Source: an uncultured Lachnospiraceae bacterium
Lineage (GTDB): Bacteria > Bacillota > Clostridia > Lachnospirales > Lachnospiraceae
Reading direction: 5' to 3'
DNA: 43,940 bases
Assembly: GCA_949740535.1 (NCBI GenBank)
Contig: CATJHO010000132.1
Span: forward strand, 1 to 43,940
The notes under the pieces were generated by a model. That model made no database searches. It had not been told where the DNA came from and saw nothing but the letters and a program-made list of their open reading frames with translations. This document shows positions 9,899-41,938 of the stretch, one piece after another. Each line of letters opens with the position of its first letter. Positions within the stretch are counted from its first letter, which is position 1. Position numbers and translations under genes: made by a program.

Positions 9899-10432
9899 TC
9901 AGCTGAAATCGTAGTCCATCAGCTGTCCGTCCTCATCGTACATCTTCACGTCAAAAGTGCCTCTGGACAGCCCTGTGATTCCCGTTCTTGCAAGCTCCAG
10001 AATCTCATAGCCGCTCAGCAGATCAATAAAAGCATCGGTCTTGGACTGATTTCCCGTCAGCTCAATCAGCAGGGACTCCCTGGACACGTCCACAATCTTG
10101 GCACGGAAAATATTGGCCACGGAAATAATGGACTGACGGTTCTCCTCATTGACCTTCAGCTTAATCATAATCAGTTCCCGGCAGATTGAACTATCCGGCT
10201 CCAGACGCTTTATATCTATGACATCCACCAGCTTGTTTAACTGCTTTTCAATCTGCTCCAGAATAATCCGATCGCCCTTTGCCACCACTGTGGCGCGGGA
10301 ATACCTGGGATCCGCCGTCACGCCTACGGTCAGACTGTCAATATTATAGCCCCGCCGGCTGAACAGACCTGCAATCCGGCTCAAAACGCCGGAGGTATTG
10401 TCAACCAACATAGAAAAAACAACTTTTCTCAT
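9899..10432 (-). CDS. ilvN: Acetolactate synthase small (regulatory) subunit
   Basis: This 177-residue protein has an N-terminal ACT domain (SMLVDNTSGVLSRIAGLFSR, then GYNIDSLTVG) that binds valine for feedback control, and a C-terminal domain that activates the catalytic subunit IlvB. The start is the ATG at 10432, which has AGAGG eight bases upstream; an in-frame GTG nine bases earlier overlaps that site. IlvB is not encoded beside it, an unusual split. The mRNA has an about 165-base leader from the promoter at 10609-10637 that contains a structured repeat. Confidence 0.96.
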   Translation of the reverse strand: MRKVVFSMLVDNTSGVLSRIAGLFSRRGYNIDSLTVGVTADPRYSRATVVAKGDRIILEQIEKQLNKLVDVIDIKRLEPDSSICRELIMIKLKVNEENRQSIISVANIFRAKIVDVSRESLLIELTGNQSKTDAFIDLLSGYEILELARTGITGLSRGTFDVKMYDEDGQLMDYDFS

Positions 10433-10451
10433 GTATTTCACCTCTTATTTT

Positions 10452-10553
10452 AGTTCCGCAGTCCCCTGCCAAGCTCCCCTGTAGCAGAAGCATTTCCGGT
10501 CGTTTGATCCCGTCCGTAAATCCTTCCGGGGCTGTATCCGGGGCCTGCTGTTT
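10452..10553 (-). repeat. Structured intergenic element, family 1, copy A (ilvN leader)
   Basis: A 102-bp element whose ends (plus strand) read AGTTCCGCAG and CTGCTGTTT. Near copies lie at 41232-41332 and 41343-41442. In mRNA orientation the ends pair (GCAGGCCCC with GGGGACTGC, one mismatch) and an inner block folds as a long stem (GGAAGGATTTACGG with CCGGAAATGCTTCT). The 3' end reads CTGCGGAACT and stands exactly 6 bases before the ilvN Shine-Dalgarno. A fragment of a second unit (GCAGGGGACTGCGGAGCT in mRNA sense) lies upstream at about 10565-10582, about 113 bases away. Confidence 0.75.
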
Positions 10554-10608
10554 AAAACCTTTTTAGCTCCGCAGTCCCCTGCACTCAGCCAGGCGCCGCA
10601 CTTTTTTA

Positions 10609-10641: not shown

Positions 10642-11436
10642 TCAGGTGAGCATCATCCGGTCATTGGCGAAGGCTCCGCCGCTGGCCTGTTCAAATTTGG
10701 CCAGAAGATCCGCAACTTTCAGTTTTTTCTTCTCCTCACCGGACACATCGTAAATGATATTTCCCTCATACATCATAATCAGGCGGTTTCCATGGGCAAT
10801 AGCGTCCTTCATGTTGTGGGTTATCATAAGCGTTGTCAGATGGTCCCGCATCACAATACGCTCGGTGACGTCCAGCACCTTGGCTGCCGTCTTGGGATCC
10901 AGCGCGGCTGTATGCTCATCCAGCAGTAACAGTTTCGGCTTCTTCAGGGTTGCCATAAGAAGTGTCAGGGCCTGCCGCTGGCCACCGGAGAGAAGTCCCA
11001 CTTTGCTGGTCATGCGCTCCTCCAATCCCAGCTCCAGAACCTTCAGCTTCTCATGATAGGCTTCCCGCTCCGCCCTGGTAATGCCGGACTTCAGAAAACG
11101 AAAGGTTCCTCTTCTGGAAGCCAGCGCCAGGTTCTCCTGAATCTGCATGTTGGCCGCCGTCCCAATCATGGGATCCTGAAACACACGGCCCAGATAGGCG
11201 GCCCGCTTATGCTCCGGCAGCCTTGTCACATCCACACCGCCGATGAAAATCTTTCCCTCATCCACCGGCCACACGCCCGCGGTTGCATTGAGCATTGTGG
11301 ACTTTCCGGCACCGTTTCCGCCGATCACTGTAACAAAATCCCCTTCGTTAAGCTCCAAAGAGAGATCCTGAAGGGCTGTCTTTTCATTTACAGTACCTAC
11401 ATTAAAAGTCTTCCAGATATGTTCTATCTTAAGCAT
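10642..11436 (-). CDS. ABC importer ATP-binding protein (TrpZ-like, COG1101 type)
   Basis: This 264-residue ATPase powers the importer encoded with the next two genes. Walker A is GGNGAGKST, the signature LSGGQRQAL and Walker B KLLLLDEHTAALDP. The family tends to have DEH where other ABC ATPases have DEP, as seen here. It overlaps the permease gene by 8 bases, so translation is coupled. The ATG at 11436 has GGGGAGG eight bases upstream; an in-frame GTG further up overlaps that site. By analogy with streptococcal TrpXYZ the substrate may be tryptophan or another amino acid, but this family has members of unknown specificity. Confidence 0.88.
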   Translation of the reverse strand: MLKIEHIWKTFNVGTVNEKTALQDLSLELNEGDFVTVIGGNGAGKSTMLNATAGVWPVDEGKIFIGGVDVTRLPEHKRAAYLGRVFQDPMIGTAANMQIQENLALASRRGTFRFLKSGITRAEREAYHEKLKVLELGLEERMTSKVGLLSGGQRQALTLLMATLKKPKLLLLDEHTAALDPKTAAKVLDVTERIVMRDHLTTLMITHNMKDAIAHGNRLIMMYEGNIIYDVSGEEKKKLKVADLLAKFEQASGGAFANDRMMLT

Positions 11437-12358: not shown

Positions 12359-12375
12359 GATAACCTCCTCATTCC

Positions 12376-12418
12376 AGTTCCGCAGTTTCCCATCCATACA
12401 TCCATATACAGCTCCGCA
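12376..12418 (-). repeat. Two copies of the TGCGGARCTG motif upstream of the permease
   Basis: In gene orientation TGCGGAGCTG (around 12410-12418) and CTGCGGAACT (around 12376-12385) occur 34 bases apart, and the second stands 6 bases before AGGAGG, the same spacing as in the structured elements before ilvN and the sugar ABC ATPase. The full about 100-bp element is not present here. Confidence 0.5.
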
Positions 12419-12479
12419 TCCGGCCGCCGAAACAGTTGTCTGTAAAGAGATCTATCCCAGGATGGAACACTGCTTTTCC

Positions 12480-12499
12480 TGTCCCTCTAAAAAGGGACA
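12480..12499. other. Small hairpin in the intercistronic leader
   Basis: TGTCCCT (12480-12486) pairs with AGGGACA (12493-12499) around a six-base loop CTAAAA. It lies just beyond the internal terminator in the substrate-binding protein to permease gap. It may stabilise the 5' end of a processed transcript; no T run follows. Confidence 0.45.
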
Positions 12500-33473: not shown

Positions 33474-36400
33474 TTAAGACAGAAAATTTCCACAGTGGTC
33501 AAGCTTTTCCCTGGCCCAGTCCCGGTACTGGGCATATTTTGCAACGCCGGGACACTGCCTTGCAATCACATCCCAGATCTCGTATGCCTGAGTCAGCAGT
33601 TCCCGGCTGCGTTCTGCGGAACTGTAGGACGCCATATTATAATAGGCCGCGGCCAGACTGCTGTAATCGCTTATTGTATGCGTTTCTTCAAATATTTCTT
33701 TACAAAGGTCTGCATACCTTGTCCGGTATTCCTGCCACGCATCCCAGTCCTCTTCCTGTACGGCAATGGAGCCTAATCTGTCGCAGGCACGTGACAGATC
33801 CCGTTTGGCCTTTATGGTCCCTGTCTCCTCGTACAGCTGTCTGCACAATCCCAGATTCCGCAGATAAAATTCCTTCGCTCTGGAGAGGTCTCCTCTGCTT
33901 CTGCTGACATCCCCCAGCCGTTCACAGCTGATAAACAGATTCCGCCGGGATTCCACGGTTCCTGCTTCCTCATACAGCTTTTCACGCAGCGAAAGCGCTT
34001 CCAGATAATAATTCTCCGCCTGAGAAAGATCACCCTCCCCTTTACAGATGTCCCCCAGCTTATTGCAGCTGACGGCAAGATTGCTTCTGGCTTCTGCCGT
34101 ACCAGTTTCCCGGCAGATTTCTCGATTCAGCTCCTGACTTTTCAGGTAATGTTCTTTTGCTCTCTCCCGGTTTCCCTCATCGAGAAAGATATTTCCCAGC
34201 CGAGTGCAGGTAATGGCAAGATCGCTTCTGGACTCTATGGTTTTCGTCTCCTCATACAGCTGTCTGGCAATTGCCAGATTTTCCTGATAATGCTTCTCTG
34301 CCTGACAGATATTTCCCTCCATAAGACAGAGATCTCCCAGCATACTGTAAGCCGCCAGAAGATTTCTCCTGGCCTGTACGCTCTCATCCTCCCTGCACAG
34401 CTCTCTGCACAATGCAAGGCCCAGTAAGGCATATTCCTGCGCTTTATCCAGTTCTCCTTCCTCTTTACAGAGACCGCAAAGCGTTTGATAATCTACAAAA
34501 AGCCCCTTTTTGTACTGTATGTTCTCCGTTTCCTCACACAGCTCCCTGTGAAGCTCCATACTCTTCCCATAGCTTTCACGGGCCAGAGCCGGCTTCCCTT
34601 CCCGTCTGCTCACATCTCCCAGCCGTTCATATGCAAGGGCCAGATCATTTCTGGACTCTGCCGTTTTCGTCTCCTCATACAGTTGCCGGCACAGTTCCTG
34701 ATTCTTAAGATAGTATTCCCGTGCCCTGGTCAAATCTCCCCTGCTCCTGCTGATATCTCCCAGCCTGCTGTAACTGATGGAAAGATCCCGTCTTGCCTGT
34801 ACGGTTCCTGTCTTCTCACAAAGCTCCCTGCAAAGCCTGAGACTTTGTCCATAATATTCCTCTGCCTGGTCAAGATTTCCCTCGTCACGGCTGATATCTC
34901 CCATTCTGTTACAGCTGGCTGCCAGCCCTCTCTGGGATTCCACGGTTCCTGTTTCCTCATATAAATGCCTTTCAAGTTCCTTTGTCTTCAGGTAGTATTC
35001 TTTTGCTCCAGACAGTTCTCCTCTGCTTTGCCTGATACTTCCCAGCAGATCATAGGTGACACTCAGGGCATTTCCTGCCTTCACCGTTTTCGTTTCCTCA
35101 TATAGCTTCCGGCGGATTTTAAGAGACTGAAGACCGTAACCCTCTGCCTGGGACAGCGCTCCCTTCCTCCTTGCGATCTCACACAGATGTTCATAGCTGA
35201 CAGAGAGTCTGCTGGCAGATTCTATGGTCTGCGTCTCCTCCCACAGCTGCCGATCCAGCTCCAGCGCTTTCAGGCAGTACGCCTCCCCTTTGGACAGATC
35301 CCCCTGTTCCCGGTAAACATCCCCCAGAAAGCTGCAGCTGGATGCCAGATCCCTTTTGCACCGCACACTCCCGATTTCCTCCCAGGACTGCCTGGAACGT
35401 TCAAAAGCCTTCTGATACCAATTCTCCGCCTGGGTAAGATTCCCCTCTTTCAGGCAGACAGCTCCCAGCCTGCTGTAACTGACGCTGAGACTGCCCCCGG
35501 CCTCCGGGGGTTCTTCCTCCTCATACAGCTGTTCCATCAGTTCACAGGCCTGCAGATAATACGCTTTTGCCTCAGACAACCGGCCTTCCTCCTGACAGAC
35601 GGTTCCGATTGCGCCGCAGCTGATAGAAAGGTCCCGCCGGGACAGCCGGGTTCCCGTCTCTTCATACGCTTTGCGGTCCATCTCCAGATTTTTCAGGTAA
35701 TATTCTTCCGCCTGAGAAAGCTTTCCCTTCTCACGGCTCACATCCCCCAGCCTGCCGTAACTGGCACTGAGACTGCGCCTGATACTGCGGCTGTCAAATC
35801 TGCTGCCCAGCTCCTGGCAGACAGACTGCATGTTTTCAAAAGTCCGCTTGGCAGCTGCAAGGTCTGCCAGTTCCCTGCAATAGTCTCCCAATTCCCACAA
35901 GGCATGCACCCAGGCTGCAGCTTCCGCCTCAGTACCGCCCTTCTCATACTGGCTGTGCCGTCTCTTAACCAGCTTTTCCTGCCATGTGACGGCTGTCCGA
36001 TAATTCCGCTCCACACCATCGCCGCCACGGTACATGCTGACCAGCTTTTCCATGGCCTCCGGCAGCTGCTGCTCTGCCGCACCTATGATAAGATTAAGGG
36101 CCCGGCTTCTGTCCACCTCCACATCAATCCCATTGAGATAAGCCAGACCAATGAAAAAATTGTGCTCCGGCGAACCGTCATTTTCCAGAATGGCCAGCTT
36201 CTGAACCGCCTCTAAAAGGGCGCTGGAAAGGGCGCCTTCCCTGCAGATATCCGCGCAGGGGGGAAGATTTTGAAACGAGCTTCGAAGCTTTTCACTGTCT
36301 GTGGGAACCAGCTCCACCGGCAGGATAAGCTTGCCGGACTTCTGCGCCTCTGGATATTCCAGGGCCATCACATAGTTTTCCGGCTCAATGATATGAGGTG

Positions 36401-37079
36401 TTACTGCCAGGGTAAACAGACTGCATTTATTCAGCGCATCCGCAATGGCCTCATTGAAATTTTCTCCCGGCGTCAGAAATTCATCGTACCAGATGGCAAT
36501 ATCCCGGCAGAACTCATTTTGGTGAATCAGCTTCATCAGCTTCTGGGCATATTTTCGATCTTTCTTGCGGTAGCTTAAGAATATGTAAGCGTCAAAAGCT
36601 GCCCGGACCTTGGCTGCCAGCTCATCTCCCACCAGCACGGAAACCAGAAATTTCTCCAGCTTTTCCTCATAGGGCAGAGCCGTGGGATCCGGATCTTCCC
36701 GGTTGATCATCTGCAGATCGCCGCATATCCGGTTGAAATCCGCCTCCAGTCCCTGTTCCTGCAGAAACGGCAGAACCGGAATATGGCGCTCCACAGCAAA
36801 GGAGAACTCTGTTTCCAGAGCACGGCTCTTCTGATAGAGAAACCGGCTGGTAACCGGAATCACCATCAGCTGCATCTGCTCCAGCTCCTGCAGAAGCTCC
36901 TCCTCTTCATATGGGGCCTCCGGCTCTGCGTCATAGTAAATGGCGCAGTTCTGGATACGCAGAATATCGCTGCTTAGTTCTTCCAAATAAGCAGGCATAT
37001 CCTCCGGATGGCCGGTGAAATAGACTCTGGATTTTCCCTGCGGACTGGAATTTCCCCTGGTCTTACAAAGCAGTTTCAT
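33474..37079 (-). CDS. Tandem TIR - Sel1-like - TPR-like repeat protein (1201 aa)
   Basis: Residues about 17-110 resemble a degenerate TIR fold (SRVYFTGHPEDM, MVIPVTSRFLYQ, IPVLPF). Residues about 163-258 are a clearer TIR domain: DAYIFLSYRKKDRKYA, BB-loop FLTPGENF, LFTLAVTPHI, and NYVMALEYPEAQ with Glu241 at the place of the NADase catalytic Glu. Residues about 300-375 are Sel1-like, and 397-1148 hold sixteen 47-residue TPR-type repeats, each starting LGD/LGS and containing EYYLK and YEET. TIR proteins cleave NAD+ or make signal nucleotides, or serve as scaffolds; which applies here is unknown. AAGGAGG eight bases before the ATG at 37079 fixes the start. Confidence 0.85.
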   Translation of the reverse strand: MKLLCKTRGNSSPQGKSRVYFTGHPEDMPAYLEELSSDILRIQNCAIYYDAEPEAPYEEEELLQELEQMQLMVIPVTSRFLYQKSRALETEFSFAVERHIPVLPFLQEQGLEADFNRICGDLQMINREDPDPTALPYEEKLEKFLVSVLVGDELAAKVRAAFDAYIFLSYRKKDRKYAQKLMKLIHQNEFCRDIAIWYDEFLTPGENFNEAIADALNKCSLFTLAVTPHIIEPENYVMALEYPEAQKSGKLILPVELVPTDSEKLRSSFQNLPPCADICREGALSSALLEAVQKLAILENDGSPEHNFFIGLAYLNGIDVEVDRSRALNLIIGAAEQQLPEAMEKLVSMYRGGDGVERNYRTAVTWQEKLVKRRHSQYEKGGTEAEAAAWVHALWELGDYCRELADLAAAKRTFENMQSVCQELGSRFDSRSIRRSLSASYGRLGDVSREKGKLSQAEEYYLKNLEMDRKAYEETGTRLSRRDLSISCGAIGTVCQEEGRLSEAKAYYLQACELMEQLYEEEEPPEAGGSLSVSYSRLGAVCLKEGNLTQAENWYQKAFERSRQSWEEIGSVRCKRDLASSCSFLGDVYREQGDLSKGEAYCLKALELDRQLWEETQTIESASRLSVSYEHLCEIARRKGALSQAEGYGLQSLKIRRKLYEETKTVKAGNALSVTYDLLGSIRQSRGELSGAKEYYLKTKELERHLYEETGTVESQRGLAASCNRMGDISRDEGNLDQAEEYYGQSLRLCRELCEKTGTVQARRDLSISYSRLGDISRSRGDLTRAREYYLKNQELCRQLYEETKTAESRNDLALAYERLGDVSRREGKPALARESYGKSMELHRELCEETENIQYKKGLFVDYQTLCGLCKEEGELDKAQEYALLGLALCRELCREDESVQARRNLLAAYSMLGDLCLMEGNICQAEKHYQENLAIARQLYEETKTIESRSDLAITCTRLGNIFLDEGNRERAKEHYLKSQELNREICRETGTAEARSNLAVSCNKLGDICKGEGDLSQAENYYLEALSLREKLYEEAGTVESRRNLFISCERLGDVSRSRGDLSRAKEFYLRNLGLCRQLYEETGTIKAKRDLSRACDRLGSIAVQEEDWDAWQEYRTRYADLCKEIFEETHTISDYSSLAAAYYNMASYSSAERSRELLTQAYEIWDVIARQCPGVAKYAQYRDWAREKLDHCGNFLS
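33636..35891 (-). repeat. Sixteen 141-bp coding repeats (47-residue TPR-like units)
   Basis: Units start at Leu397 (nt 35891) and recur every 47 residues without insertion to the unit at Leu1102 (nt 33776), sixteen in all. The consensus is LGDxxREeGdLsqAeeYYlk-xxeLxRqLyEETgTxesrxdLaxsyxR. Units differ considerably at DNA level, so the array is old rather than a fresh expansion; the most alike are the units beginning LGDISRSRGD and LGDVSRSRGD. Confidence 0.9.
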
Positions 37080-37154
37080 AATAGATTCCTCCTTTGACAG
37101 CTTTTGTTCCATTTAAACATACGTTTTACTGCCCCTTTTGTTCTCATACCCCGT

Positions 37155-40101: not shown

Positions 40102-41211
40102 TTAATGGGTAATTGCTATTTCTGTCTCTTTGTCAAATACATGAATCTTATCTGTATCCAGAACAAAATCCACTACATCATTCTCGCGGGCCGCTGTGCT
40201 GGAGCTTACTCTCGCCGTCATCTGCGTTCCGCACATATCAAAGTACAGATACACTTCTGCACCCAAGAGCTCATACACATTTACCGTTCCTTTTACCACT
40301 GCCTGATTCTTGGCTCTGGTGGTTGCCGGATCGCTTACGTCCTCCGGACGGATTCCCATAACCACTTCTTTTCCCGCATAGCCGCCGTCAAGGAGCTTTC
40401 TGCCCTTTTCTTTGGAAAGCGCAATGCGGTACTCACCGGCTTTCAGGAATACCTCTTCTCCCTCTGCCTGGCAGACTGCATCCACAAAGTTCATCTGCGG
40501 AGAACCGATAAAGCCTGCTACGAACAGATTATCCGGAGCATTGTACAAGGTCTGGGGGCTGGCAATCTGCTGAACCACGCCGTCCTTCATAACAACGATT
40601 CTTGTTCCCAGTGTCATCGCCTCAGTCTGATCATGGGTTACATAGATAATCGTAGCGCCCAGTCTCTGGTGAAGCTTGGAGATCTCGGTACGCATCTGCA
40701 CGCGCAGTTTCGCATCCAGGTTGGACAGAGGCTCATCCATCAGGAATACCTTGGGATTTCTTACGATGGCGCGGCCCATAGCCACACGCTGGCGCTGTCC
40801 GCCGGAAAGCGCTCTGGGCTTCCGGTCCAGAAGCTTCTCCAGATCCAGGATCTTGGCTGCTTCCCGCACCTTCCTGTCAATCTCATCCTTGGGAGTCTTC
40901 TTAATCTTCAGGCCGAACGCCATATTGTCGTACACGGTCATATGCGGATACAGAGCATAGCTCTGGAACACCATTGCAATATCCCTGTCCTTGGGCTCCA
41001 CATCGTTCATCATCTGGCCGTCAATCTTAAACTCGCCGGAAGAAATGCTCTCCAGGCCTGCTACCATACGCAGGGTGGTAGATTTTCCACATCCTGACGG
41101 ACCTACGAAGATAATGAACTCCTTATCCTCAATTTCCAGGTTAAAATCTTTTACTGCCTCGTATCCGTTGGGATATCTCTTCCAAATATTTTTTAATGAT
41201 AAGCTTGCCAT
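40102..41211 (-). CDS. Sugar ABC importer ATPase (MsmK/UgpC/MalK type)
   Basis: A 369-residue carbohydrate-import ATPase with Walker [10 protein letters not shown], signature [15 protein letters not shown], Walker [17 protein letters not shown], and a C-terminal TOBE/regulatory region (about 240-369; GIRPEDVSD). MsmK-type subunits serve several sugar importers at once and are often encoded apart from permeases, as here: no permease or binding protein lies in the window. Neighbours suggest alpha-glucosides or alpha-galactosides as substrates. GGAGG eight bases before the ATG; two tandem structured repeats stand directly upstream. Confidence 0.93.
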
Positions 41212-41231
41212 CCCTCTTACCTCCTGATTTG

Positions 41232-41332
41232 AGTTCCGCAGCCCCCTCCCACTGCCCCTTGTTAAGAAGTATTTCCGGCCGGTAACTGCCGTCCGTAAAT
41301 CCTTCTGGGACTGTGTCCGGGGTCTGCTGTTT
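41232..41332 (-). repeat. Structured intergenic element, family 1, copy B
   Basis: A 101-bp element that nearly matches copy C, 111 bases away, and is similar to copy A at 10452-10553. In mRNA sense its ends pair (GCAGACCCC with GGGGGCTGC), GGAC/GTCC forms a small stem, and AGAAGGATTTACGG pairs with CCGGAAATACTTCT as a long stem. The CTGCGGAACT end lies 6 bases before the ABC ATPase Shine-Dalgarno AGGAGG. Confidence 0.8.
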
Positions 41333-41342
41333 ACATTATTTG

Positions 41343-41442
41343 AGTTCCGCAGCCCCTCCCACTGTCCCTTGCTGAGAAGTATTTCCGGCCGGTAACTGCC
41401 GTCCGTAAATCCTTCTGGGACTGTGTCCGGGGTCTGCTGTTT
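41343..41442 (-). repeat. Structured intergenic element, family 1, copy C
   Basis: A tandem partner of copy B with only a few substitutions and one deletion; the pairing blocks are unchanged. Together B and C fill the 264-base gap between the ABC ATPase gene and the next gene. In mRNA order C comes first. Confidence 0.8.
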
Positions 41443-41476
41443 TGATTATTTAGGTTCTATCATTACATGTATTTCT

Positions 41477-41938
41477 TTAGTTTTTCTCTAAAAGCCGGTG
41501 CAGCTGCATTTCCTCCAAAAATTCCTTGTTGGGTTCCAGGTAAATCAGCTCATTGCCCACTTTCATGGTGTACACCTCCGCCTGCTCCCAGCCAGATGTA
41601 AAATCACGGACCCGGCAGCCTGAAGCCTGCTTCCGGCCTTTTGCCACATACTCTATATTCTTGCGCTCACAGCGGTAGAGATCCCTGCGCTTCTCCTTGC
41701 GGATAATTTTGGAGACTTCAAAATCTCCATTCACGTACACAAATTCAAATTCATACCGCCAGCTTCGAAGCAGCAGGATGCCGATGACCACGAAAGCCAG
41801 CACTGGCAGAAACAGCAGCGGATAAATAATCGTATCCACCACCAGCACCACCATGGATGCCAGCATAACTGCTTTCAACAGCCGTTTTCCTTTTGGCATT
41901 ACATAAGGAATATACCACTCCAGTACAACATCCTTCAT
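41477..41938 (-). CDS. Small membrane protein, possibly DUF6106
   Basis: A 153-residue protein with two adjacent hydrophobic segments (about 20-60; LKAVMLASMVVLVVDTIIYP, LLFLPVLAFVVIGILLL) and a soluble C-terminal domain (EFEFVYVNGDFEVSKIIRKE, then GNELIYLEPNKEFLEEM). It resembles the DUF6106 family of Firmicutes, from memory only. Function unknown. GGAG precedes the ATG by seven bases. It lies between alpha-galactosidase (39-base gap) and the repeat-bearing leader of the ABC ATPase. Confidence 0.7.
   Translation of the reverse strand: MKDVVLEWYIPYVMPKGKRLLKAVMLASMVVLVVDTIIYPLLFLPVLAFVVIGILLLRSWRYEFEFVYVNGDFEVSKIIRKEKRRDLYRCERKNIEYVAKGRKQASGCRVRDFTSGWEQAEVYTMKVGNELIYLEPNKEFLEEMQLHRLLEKN

Follow-up and report, generated by a model that had tools for sequence, protein, structure and literature searches.

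A sense-only hairpin family adjoining Shine-Dalgarno sequences, mostly between cistrons, in a lineage of Lachnospiraceae

The window, the whole stretch of DNA that was analysed, comprises 43,940 nt from an uncultured Lachnospiraceae bacterium. Two copies of a structured element of 102/103 nt are located on its minus strand between two genes of the same direction. The upstream gene (41477..41938, minus strand) encodes a DUF6106 protein of 153 aa; the downstream gene (40102..41211, minus strand) encodes a UgpC/MalK-type sugar ABC transporter ATPase of 369 aa (assigned with NCBIfam and Pfam), and both copies are in mRNA sense relative to its ORF. The stop codon of the DUF6106 gene lies 32 nt before the first copy (41343..41444, 102 nt), which is followed by a linker of 8 nt (41335..41342, caaataat) without a Shine-Dalgarno (SD)-like motif and then by the SD-proximal copy (41232..41334, 103 nt). 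The SD, AGGAGG (41220..41225, minus strand), is 6 nt 3' of this second copy. The copies are 96% identical to each other with a start-to-start spacing of 110–111 nt; an earlier note on this DNA was therefore correct in describing two near-identical units in the leader of the ATPase gene, and in placing a unit closed by its stem P1 next to the ribosome site. Both copies were found by blastn as members of one family and by the covariance models R1 and R2 (73.4 bits for the upstream and 76.9 bits for the SD-proximal copy with R2). In the SD-proximal copy, a near-invariant tip hairpin AGAAGGATTTACGG..CCGGAAATACTTCT spans 41265..41306, and the arms of P1 lie at about 41318..41327 (5' arm) and 41238..41247 (3' arm, followed by a conserved GGAACT tail), limits that are approximate and taken from the cmsearch alignment. 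A 32-nt core pattern with up to three mismatches occurs twice in the window and in 0 of 100 shuffles.

The third copy mentioned in the earlier note is real and is located at 10452..10555 on the minus strand (blastn; 64.4 bits), before the ORF 9899–10441, which may, judged by reading its sequence, encode the small subunit of acetolactate synthase. A fourth, decayed copy (12376..12480, minus strand) is recognised by the covariance model with 19.2 bits (E 0.02). It retains the exact tail CGGAACTGGAATGAGGAG at 12365–12382 and is placed at the start of an ORF ending at 11429, whose product may be permease-like from a reading of its sequence. Elsewhere in the window, 33474–37112 (minus strand) holds an ORF of 1212 aa whose many repeats are spaced by multiples of 141 nt; by eye, it begins with a TIR-like part and continues with tetratricopeptide-type repeats.

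The element RNA is one interrupted hairpin, in which a small internal loop sets off P1 (~10 bp) from P2 and an asymmetric 3' bulge lies between P2 and the tip hairpin. The stem is variable and covaries, while the tip (AUUUACGGACG..CGGCCGGAAAU) varies little. By eye, three A·G mismatches, each with its A on the 5' side, are for the most part conserved. Both window copies fold far better than shuffled sequences (z −5.7 for the upstream and −4.5 for the SD-proximal copy, with 0 of 200 shuffles as good in each case), in agreement with the structured RNA that the earlier note had proposed. The closing stem (GCAG-CCCC with GGGG-CTGC) and the AGAAGG..CTTCT stem of that proposal are retained, but its three separate stems are one long interrupted hairpin: the supposed independent GGAC/GTCC stem is its second segment, in which GTCCC pairs with GGGAC.

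The covariation check suggested in the same note also gave a positive answer. In a sequence-only alignment of 38 copies from other genomes, 94.6% of the cells pair as compared to 82.3% after shuffling and 33–47% with slid partners, and compensatory double changes occur in 24 of 35 pairs; the 35-pair structure was derived from this alignment itself. Model R2 contains no copies of the window's own genome. When the model of other-genome copies was applied to 85 copies of the own genome, 89.5% of the cells paired (74.4% shuffled), with double changes in 26 of the 35 pairs and 432 double-change cells versus 147, in a model-fitted alignment that leans toward the structure. On all five measures, 0 of 500 shuffles matched the real copies, and slid structures were 33–50% paired. 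The pairs thus covary beyond the controls, as in a structured cis-acting RNA.

On the sense strand, G·U exceeds A·C 2.4- to 5.5-fold, both in model-fitted alignments (120:30 in the own genome, 148:27 and 29:12 in others), where the covariance model favours G·U over A·C and so biases the counts, and in the sequence-only alignment (37:13, one mismatch column excluded). P1 alone gives 10:3 in the sequence-only alignment (p 0.09). The excess points to pairing kept on the mRNA strand, and from these sequences the pairing looks constrained there. Transcription-linked C-to-T mutation bias could add to the asymmetry. In predicted folds of 76 sites, the probability that the SD is unpaired is 0.607 with the element and 0.562 with a shuffled element (p 0.004); with the element removed it is 0.614, not significantly different from 0.607. 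As predicted to fold, the element leaves the SD accessible.

A blastn search of the own genome with one copy gave 48 matches (E 0.01). R1, built from 31 own-genome copies, gave 114 rows, which correspond to 97 distinct places and 17 opposite-strand shadows (dropped). The 97 places are a lower bound, as the genome is 84% complete and scoring was limited to 150 candidates; of the 32 exact tails located in a pattern search, 4 fall outside the 97, and R2 adds at least one more place (C57). An SD and an ORF follow 80 of the 97 places and another copy follows 12, with neither at the remaining five (four at contig ends and one with a start codon but a weak SD). The start codons behind the 80 places are ATG in 71, GTG in five, and TTG in four, and the start distance is 14–25 nt in 74, 14–30 nt in 76, and 75–79 nt in two. 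Over 200 nt of downstream sequence was available at 93 places, and 78 of them passed a 36-nt rule for SD and ORF in the sense direction, as against 0 of 94 in antisense; random positions passed at 10.6% (2,120 of 20,000), a rate inflated because the sampled loci are centred on elements. Among 139 copies from other genomes, some of them places counted twice in overlapping loci, 90 are followed by an SD and an ORF and 38 by another copy, while the rule finds neither behind the remaining 11. Four of these 11 (4/139) have a start codon within ~15 nt and no recognisable SD, and the others have weak SDs, contig ends, or further copies.

By a longest-ORF rule with at least 700 nt upstream, 76 of 83 own-genome arrays sit behind a co-directional gene; the rule mislabels some sites, and at least one of the seven 'opposite' calls, the window's own site, is an artefact. 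The median distance from the stop codon to the element is 27 nt, with 63 of the 76 within 60 nt and 13 overlapping the stop codon. Of the 77 downstream proteins in the own genome, 30 were scanned with NCBIfam, including the window gene, and 25 of these match a family at E 1e-20. Genes over the cut-off are dapA, proA, proC, LL-diaminopimelate aminotransferase, bioA, aroD, ilvD, ispG, rhaA, purine nucleoside phosphorylase, rnfB, rnfC, rmlD, mutS, pgeF, and oxaloacetate decarboxylase alpha; ftsW-type, argR-type, PTS IIC, and TrhP/UbiU-like genes were below it. Further downstream genes identified by eye are gyrA, gyrB, polC, lon, glmS, trpS, coaD, and V-ATPase subunits. The association with particular genes that the earlier note had thought worth checking is not seen, since the copies in this one genome precede unrelated genes.

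Within the genus, the own genome and seven relatives (8 of 16) have 47–148 R2 match rows each among the best 150 candidates scored, some of which may be opposite-strand shadows, and the remaining eight genomes have no R2 match. A diverged 92-nt form was seen by R1 in three R2-negative genomes of the genus (L065, L066, and L067); it precedes a gene reading as ribosomal protein S14 (rpsN), and four are in tandem in G003. In the family, a scan with strict filters and 13 candidates scored per genome found at least 7 positive genomes among 299 (about one per genus) and no element in the other 292. As half of the genus and most of the family yielded no element, it appears dispensable. A first, stricter pattern had no match in GTDB 220, and a looser exact pattern matched 71 stretches in 84,980 GTDB genomes, most titled Lachnospiraceae and one Oscillospiraceae. 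Many of these stretches presumably come from mouse-gut collections, and cultured isolates such as 1XD21-13 and D16-50 are among the carriers. On a gyrB tree of 23 genomes, the element trait needs four changes, two of them forced by well-supported branches.

Orthologous junctions were compared at gyrB and V-ATPase B, which were sought in 26 genomes; 21 gyrB and 16 V-ATPase loci were fully readable, and incomplete ones, for example of G003 and G009, were left out. The stop-start gap between V-ATPase A and B is 12–17 nt in 11 of the 16 genomes, five of which carry elements elsewhere with no copy at this junction. The gap is 119 nt in G000 and G013, exactly one element plus SD, and 167 nt in G012 and 271 nt in G006, with partial and tandem copies. 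The corresponding gap of G005 (L281) is 62 nt and contains a core-deleted mini hairpin that keeps P1 and the tail and has lost the tip. Between gyrB and gyrA, the gap is 19–30 nt in five element-free relatives of the genus and 142, 135, and 127 nt with an element in G000, G006, and G005; other positive genomes have no element there, such as G012 (12 nt) and G013, which has a different repeat. The short stop-start gaps in relatives, where others have the element, show by sequence comparison that the element was inserted between the stop codon and the SD at the junctions compared. Occupied and empty orthologous sites, as expected of a MITE-like repeat, were thus found at both V-ATPase A-B and gyrB-gyrA. 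No target-site duplication is evident at the V-ATPase A-B junction, the one inspected by eye for this.

In 400 kb of the element-free genome G001, four of the own-genome junctions were found, with no copies; in 400 kb of G013, eight were found and four were occupied, including the window's site. One of the eight is probably a paralogue (50% identity upstream); three of the four occupied junctions were flagged by script, and the fourth, decayed, was recognised by eye, with a 33.6-bit model match in the locus. The covariance model finds 15 copies in the 400 kb of G013 and none in those of G001. The orthologous site of the window in G013 also has a tandem pair, in which P1 is wholly different yet paired.

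Another hairpin repeat, GTAAAGTCGCAAAGGCGCAC..AAGCGACTTTACCC..GCGCAGCGACTTTTATAGGAGG, which is unrelated to the element, likewise extends right up to the SD. It is located in the V-ATPase B-D gap of G006 and G012 (L285 and L286) and in the gyrB-gyrA gap of G013 (L253), and shorter look-alikes precede gyrB in G005 and G012. In four element-free genomes of the same genus (G008, G010, G007, and G015; L290, L291, L292, and L294), the V-ATPase B-D gap is 319–571 nt; these long sequences are alike by eye and end at the SD.

Copies within 400 nt of each other in the own genome are 89–98% identical in 10 of 13 pairs and 75–78% in three, whereas the best dispersed pair is 91% identical and the median over 3,815 dispersed pairs is 73.5% (copies above 40 bits). 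The tandem layout noted for the window recurs elsewhere, with further copies directly following elements. GGAG, GAGG, or AGGA occurs in 0 of 50 tandem linkers, some of them from overlapping loci; in L088, the weak match that comes next has a GGAG among its first bases. With no SD-like motif in the linkers, the arrays seem to lengthen on the 5' side of the single SD. Judged by these repeats, the SD lies outside the repeated unit.

The element is a member of no named family. Rfam 15 gave no matches in the whole window and none in 20 further loci holding copies; no family reached its gathering threshold, and 41180–41500 had two matches at chance level only (E 3.1 and 8.6). No description of the element was found in the literature surveyed at the level of titles and abstracts, which is no proof that it is unpublished. 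Stem-loops at gene junctions are also present in Clostridium operons, where the SRPS stem-loops are linked, in the account summarised in PMC4423207, to cistron-specific mRNA processing and levels in Clostridia. The present element differs in being one conserved family at dozens of junctions, locked to the SD. To our knowledge, each SRPS stem-loop is individual, and together they do not form a sequence family. By description, the element also resembles the dispersed intergenic, MITE-like enterobacterial repeats of about 100 bp of the ERIC/RU type, summarised for another host phylum with RUs of 127, 168, and 103 bp (PMC2759123). REP/REPIN sequences with RAYT transposases share high copy number, imperfect hairpins, and extragenic location, and in the same summaries REPs alternate in orientation in BIMEs (PMC3116915, PMC2817692). 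Unlike REP/REPIN, the element varies in its outer stem and conserves its tip. A Y1/RAYT mobiliser (REP/RAYT or IS200/IS605-derived) was rejected, as the Y1 transposase PF01797 does not track the element: it is absent from 6 of 14 positive genomes (G000, G004, G006, G028, G284, and G319, of which G000 and G284 are only 84% and 77% complete) and present in 7 of 12 negative ones. ERIC repeats lie in both orientations, and no tie to the SD is known for them. Pneumococcal BOX and Neisseria NEMIS are transcribed modular or RNase III-cleaved repeats near genes; their likeness to the element is by description only, and the element is SD-locked and in sense only, which we know of for neither.

The element is thus a sense-only, SD-adjacent, mostly intercistronic, lineage-specific hairpin family, and several explanations of it have to be weighed. 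The earlier note had likened the window pair to tandem riboswitches, with sugars or amino acids as candidate ligands. The conserved structured tip, the doubled structured RNA, and the closeness to the SD do recall tandem riboswitches, but a metabolite-sensing function is scarcely credible. The downstream genes are many, unrelated, and without a pathway-specific set, and their diversity makes a single-metabolite riboswitch unlikely; on this diversity and the intercistronic position close behind co-directional genes, the sugar or amino acid version was rejected. The RNA is also a single hairpin without a multi-helix pocket, and no SD-hiding fold is predicted, the SD being equally open without the element. 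It is very improbable that the covariation is mutational, with quasi-palindrome correction by template switching, a process known for bacterial inverted repeats, keeping the arms complementary without selection. P1 is indeed almost completely different between some orthologous sites, but the A·G mismatches and the 3' bulge are (by eye) largely conserved rather than corrected, and G·U exceeds A·C on one strand. A global protein-binding translational operator, with CsrA as the leading candidate binder, is improbable to a lesser degree. GGA motifs, one conserved in the tail (GCGGAACU) and one within the SD, would suit CsrA. All 13 strongly positive genomes have CsrA, as do 2 of 12 negatives over the cut-off. 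Flagellin, however, tracks nearly in the same way (13 of 13; 1 of 12), so the CsrA link is inseparable from motility and shared descent. The weakly positive 14th genome, G284 (77% complete), has neither; CsrA is present in 152 of the 299 family genomes, and the element was found in only seven, six of which have CsrA. In addition, the tail is variable among genomes at its second GGA, and the tip GGAs lie in stems, whereas known CsrA sites have GGA in loops.

The main rival is the dispersed mobile repeat that the earlier note had already named as an alternative. A mobile hairpin, copied as MITE-like DNA or from an RNA template, would insert in a single orientation immediately before SD motifs; the structure of the hairpin would serve its own copying, the host would gain nothing, and the copies would decay. 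We consider this a real possibility, although a doubtful one. It would account for the high copy number before diverse genes, the patchy distribution on the gyrB tree, the empty and occupied junctions, the truncated copies, and an SD outside the repeated unit. Against it, recent dispersal is not seen in the own genome, where the best dispersed pair is the 91% one; the Y1 transposase, the sole partner enzyme looked for, does not track the element; and there was no match in phages, plasmids, or IMG/VR (the last by one exact pattern), for which phage or plasmid cargo was rejected. A plain repeat with random orientation and distance to genes and no covarying pairs, as the earlier note had framed it, does not describe the family: the sense is uniform, the start distance nearly fixed, and the pairs covary.

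We tentatively favour, as quite possible though by no means assured, a new lineage-specific intercistronic RNA element of ~105 nt that would isolate the downstream cistron, perhaps by processing. Insertion and constraint at the RNA level are supported; the mechanism we infer. The element would act after transcription, its hairpin forming in the stop-SD gap of the polycistronic mRNA. The invariant tip could be recognised by a general RNA-binding factor or a double-strand ribonuclease, and the closed stem, ending ~11–12 nt before an open SD, would separate the downstream cistron from its neighbour. This separation would break translational coupling and protect the 5' side of the downstream cistron; the hairpin may also mark a cut that frees it. 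Copies would have spread to new junctions in the past, and tandem duplication would enlarge arrays locally. Against this explanation, positive genomes are without the element at several orthologous junctions, and decayed or core-deleted copies exist, as expected of a mobile repeat; the dispensability of the element, the equal openness of the SD when it is removed, and the few copies followed by a start codon but no recognisable SD also weigh against it. In our best reading, the element would work most like an SRPS-like processing or isolating stem-loop and has a history like that of a MITE-type insertion, with a putative effect on the host.

A bolder and rather unlikely proposal is an RNA-shaped mobile element that would target ribosome-binding sites and insert in sense between stop codon and SD. 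Across a bacterial lineage, dozens to more than 100 junctions would thereby have turned into independent translation modules that share a single RNA recognition signal. If true, this would be a genome-wide rewiring of operons by a repeat. Intergenic repeats are usually seen as placed without regard to the ribosome site; here, in contrast, a covarying hairpin is present in one orientation and at a near-fixed start distance at ~80 junctions of one genome. With empty orthologous junctions available in related species, two questions can be put to the test: can a dispersed repeat serve as a module at the RNA level by which operon genes are uncoupled, and what confines such an element to ribosome-binding sites? 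The family itself offers naturally varied stems on an invariant core, a collection with which the binding factor may be found.
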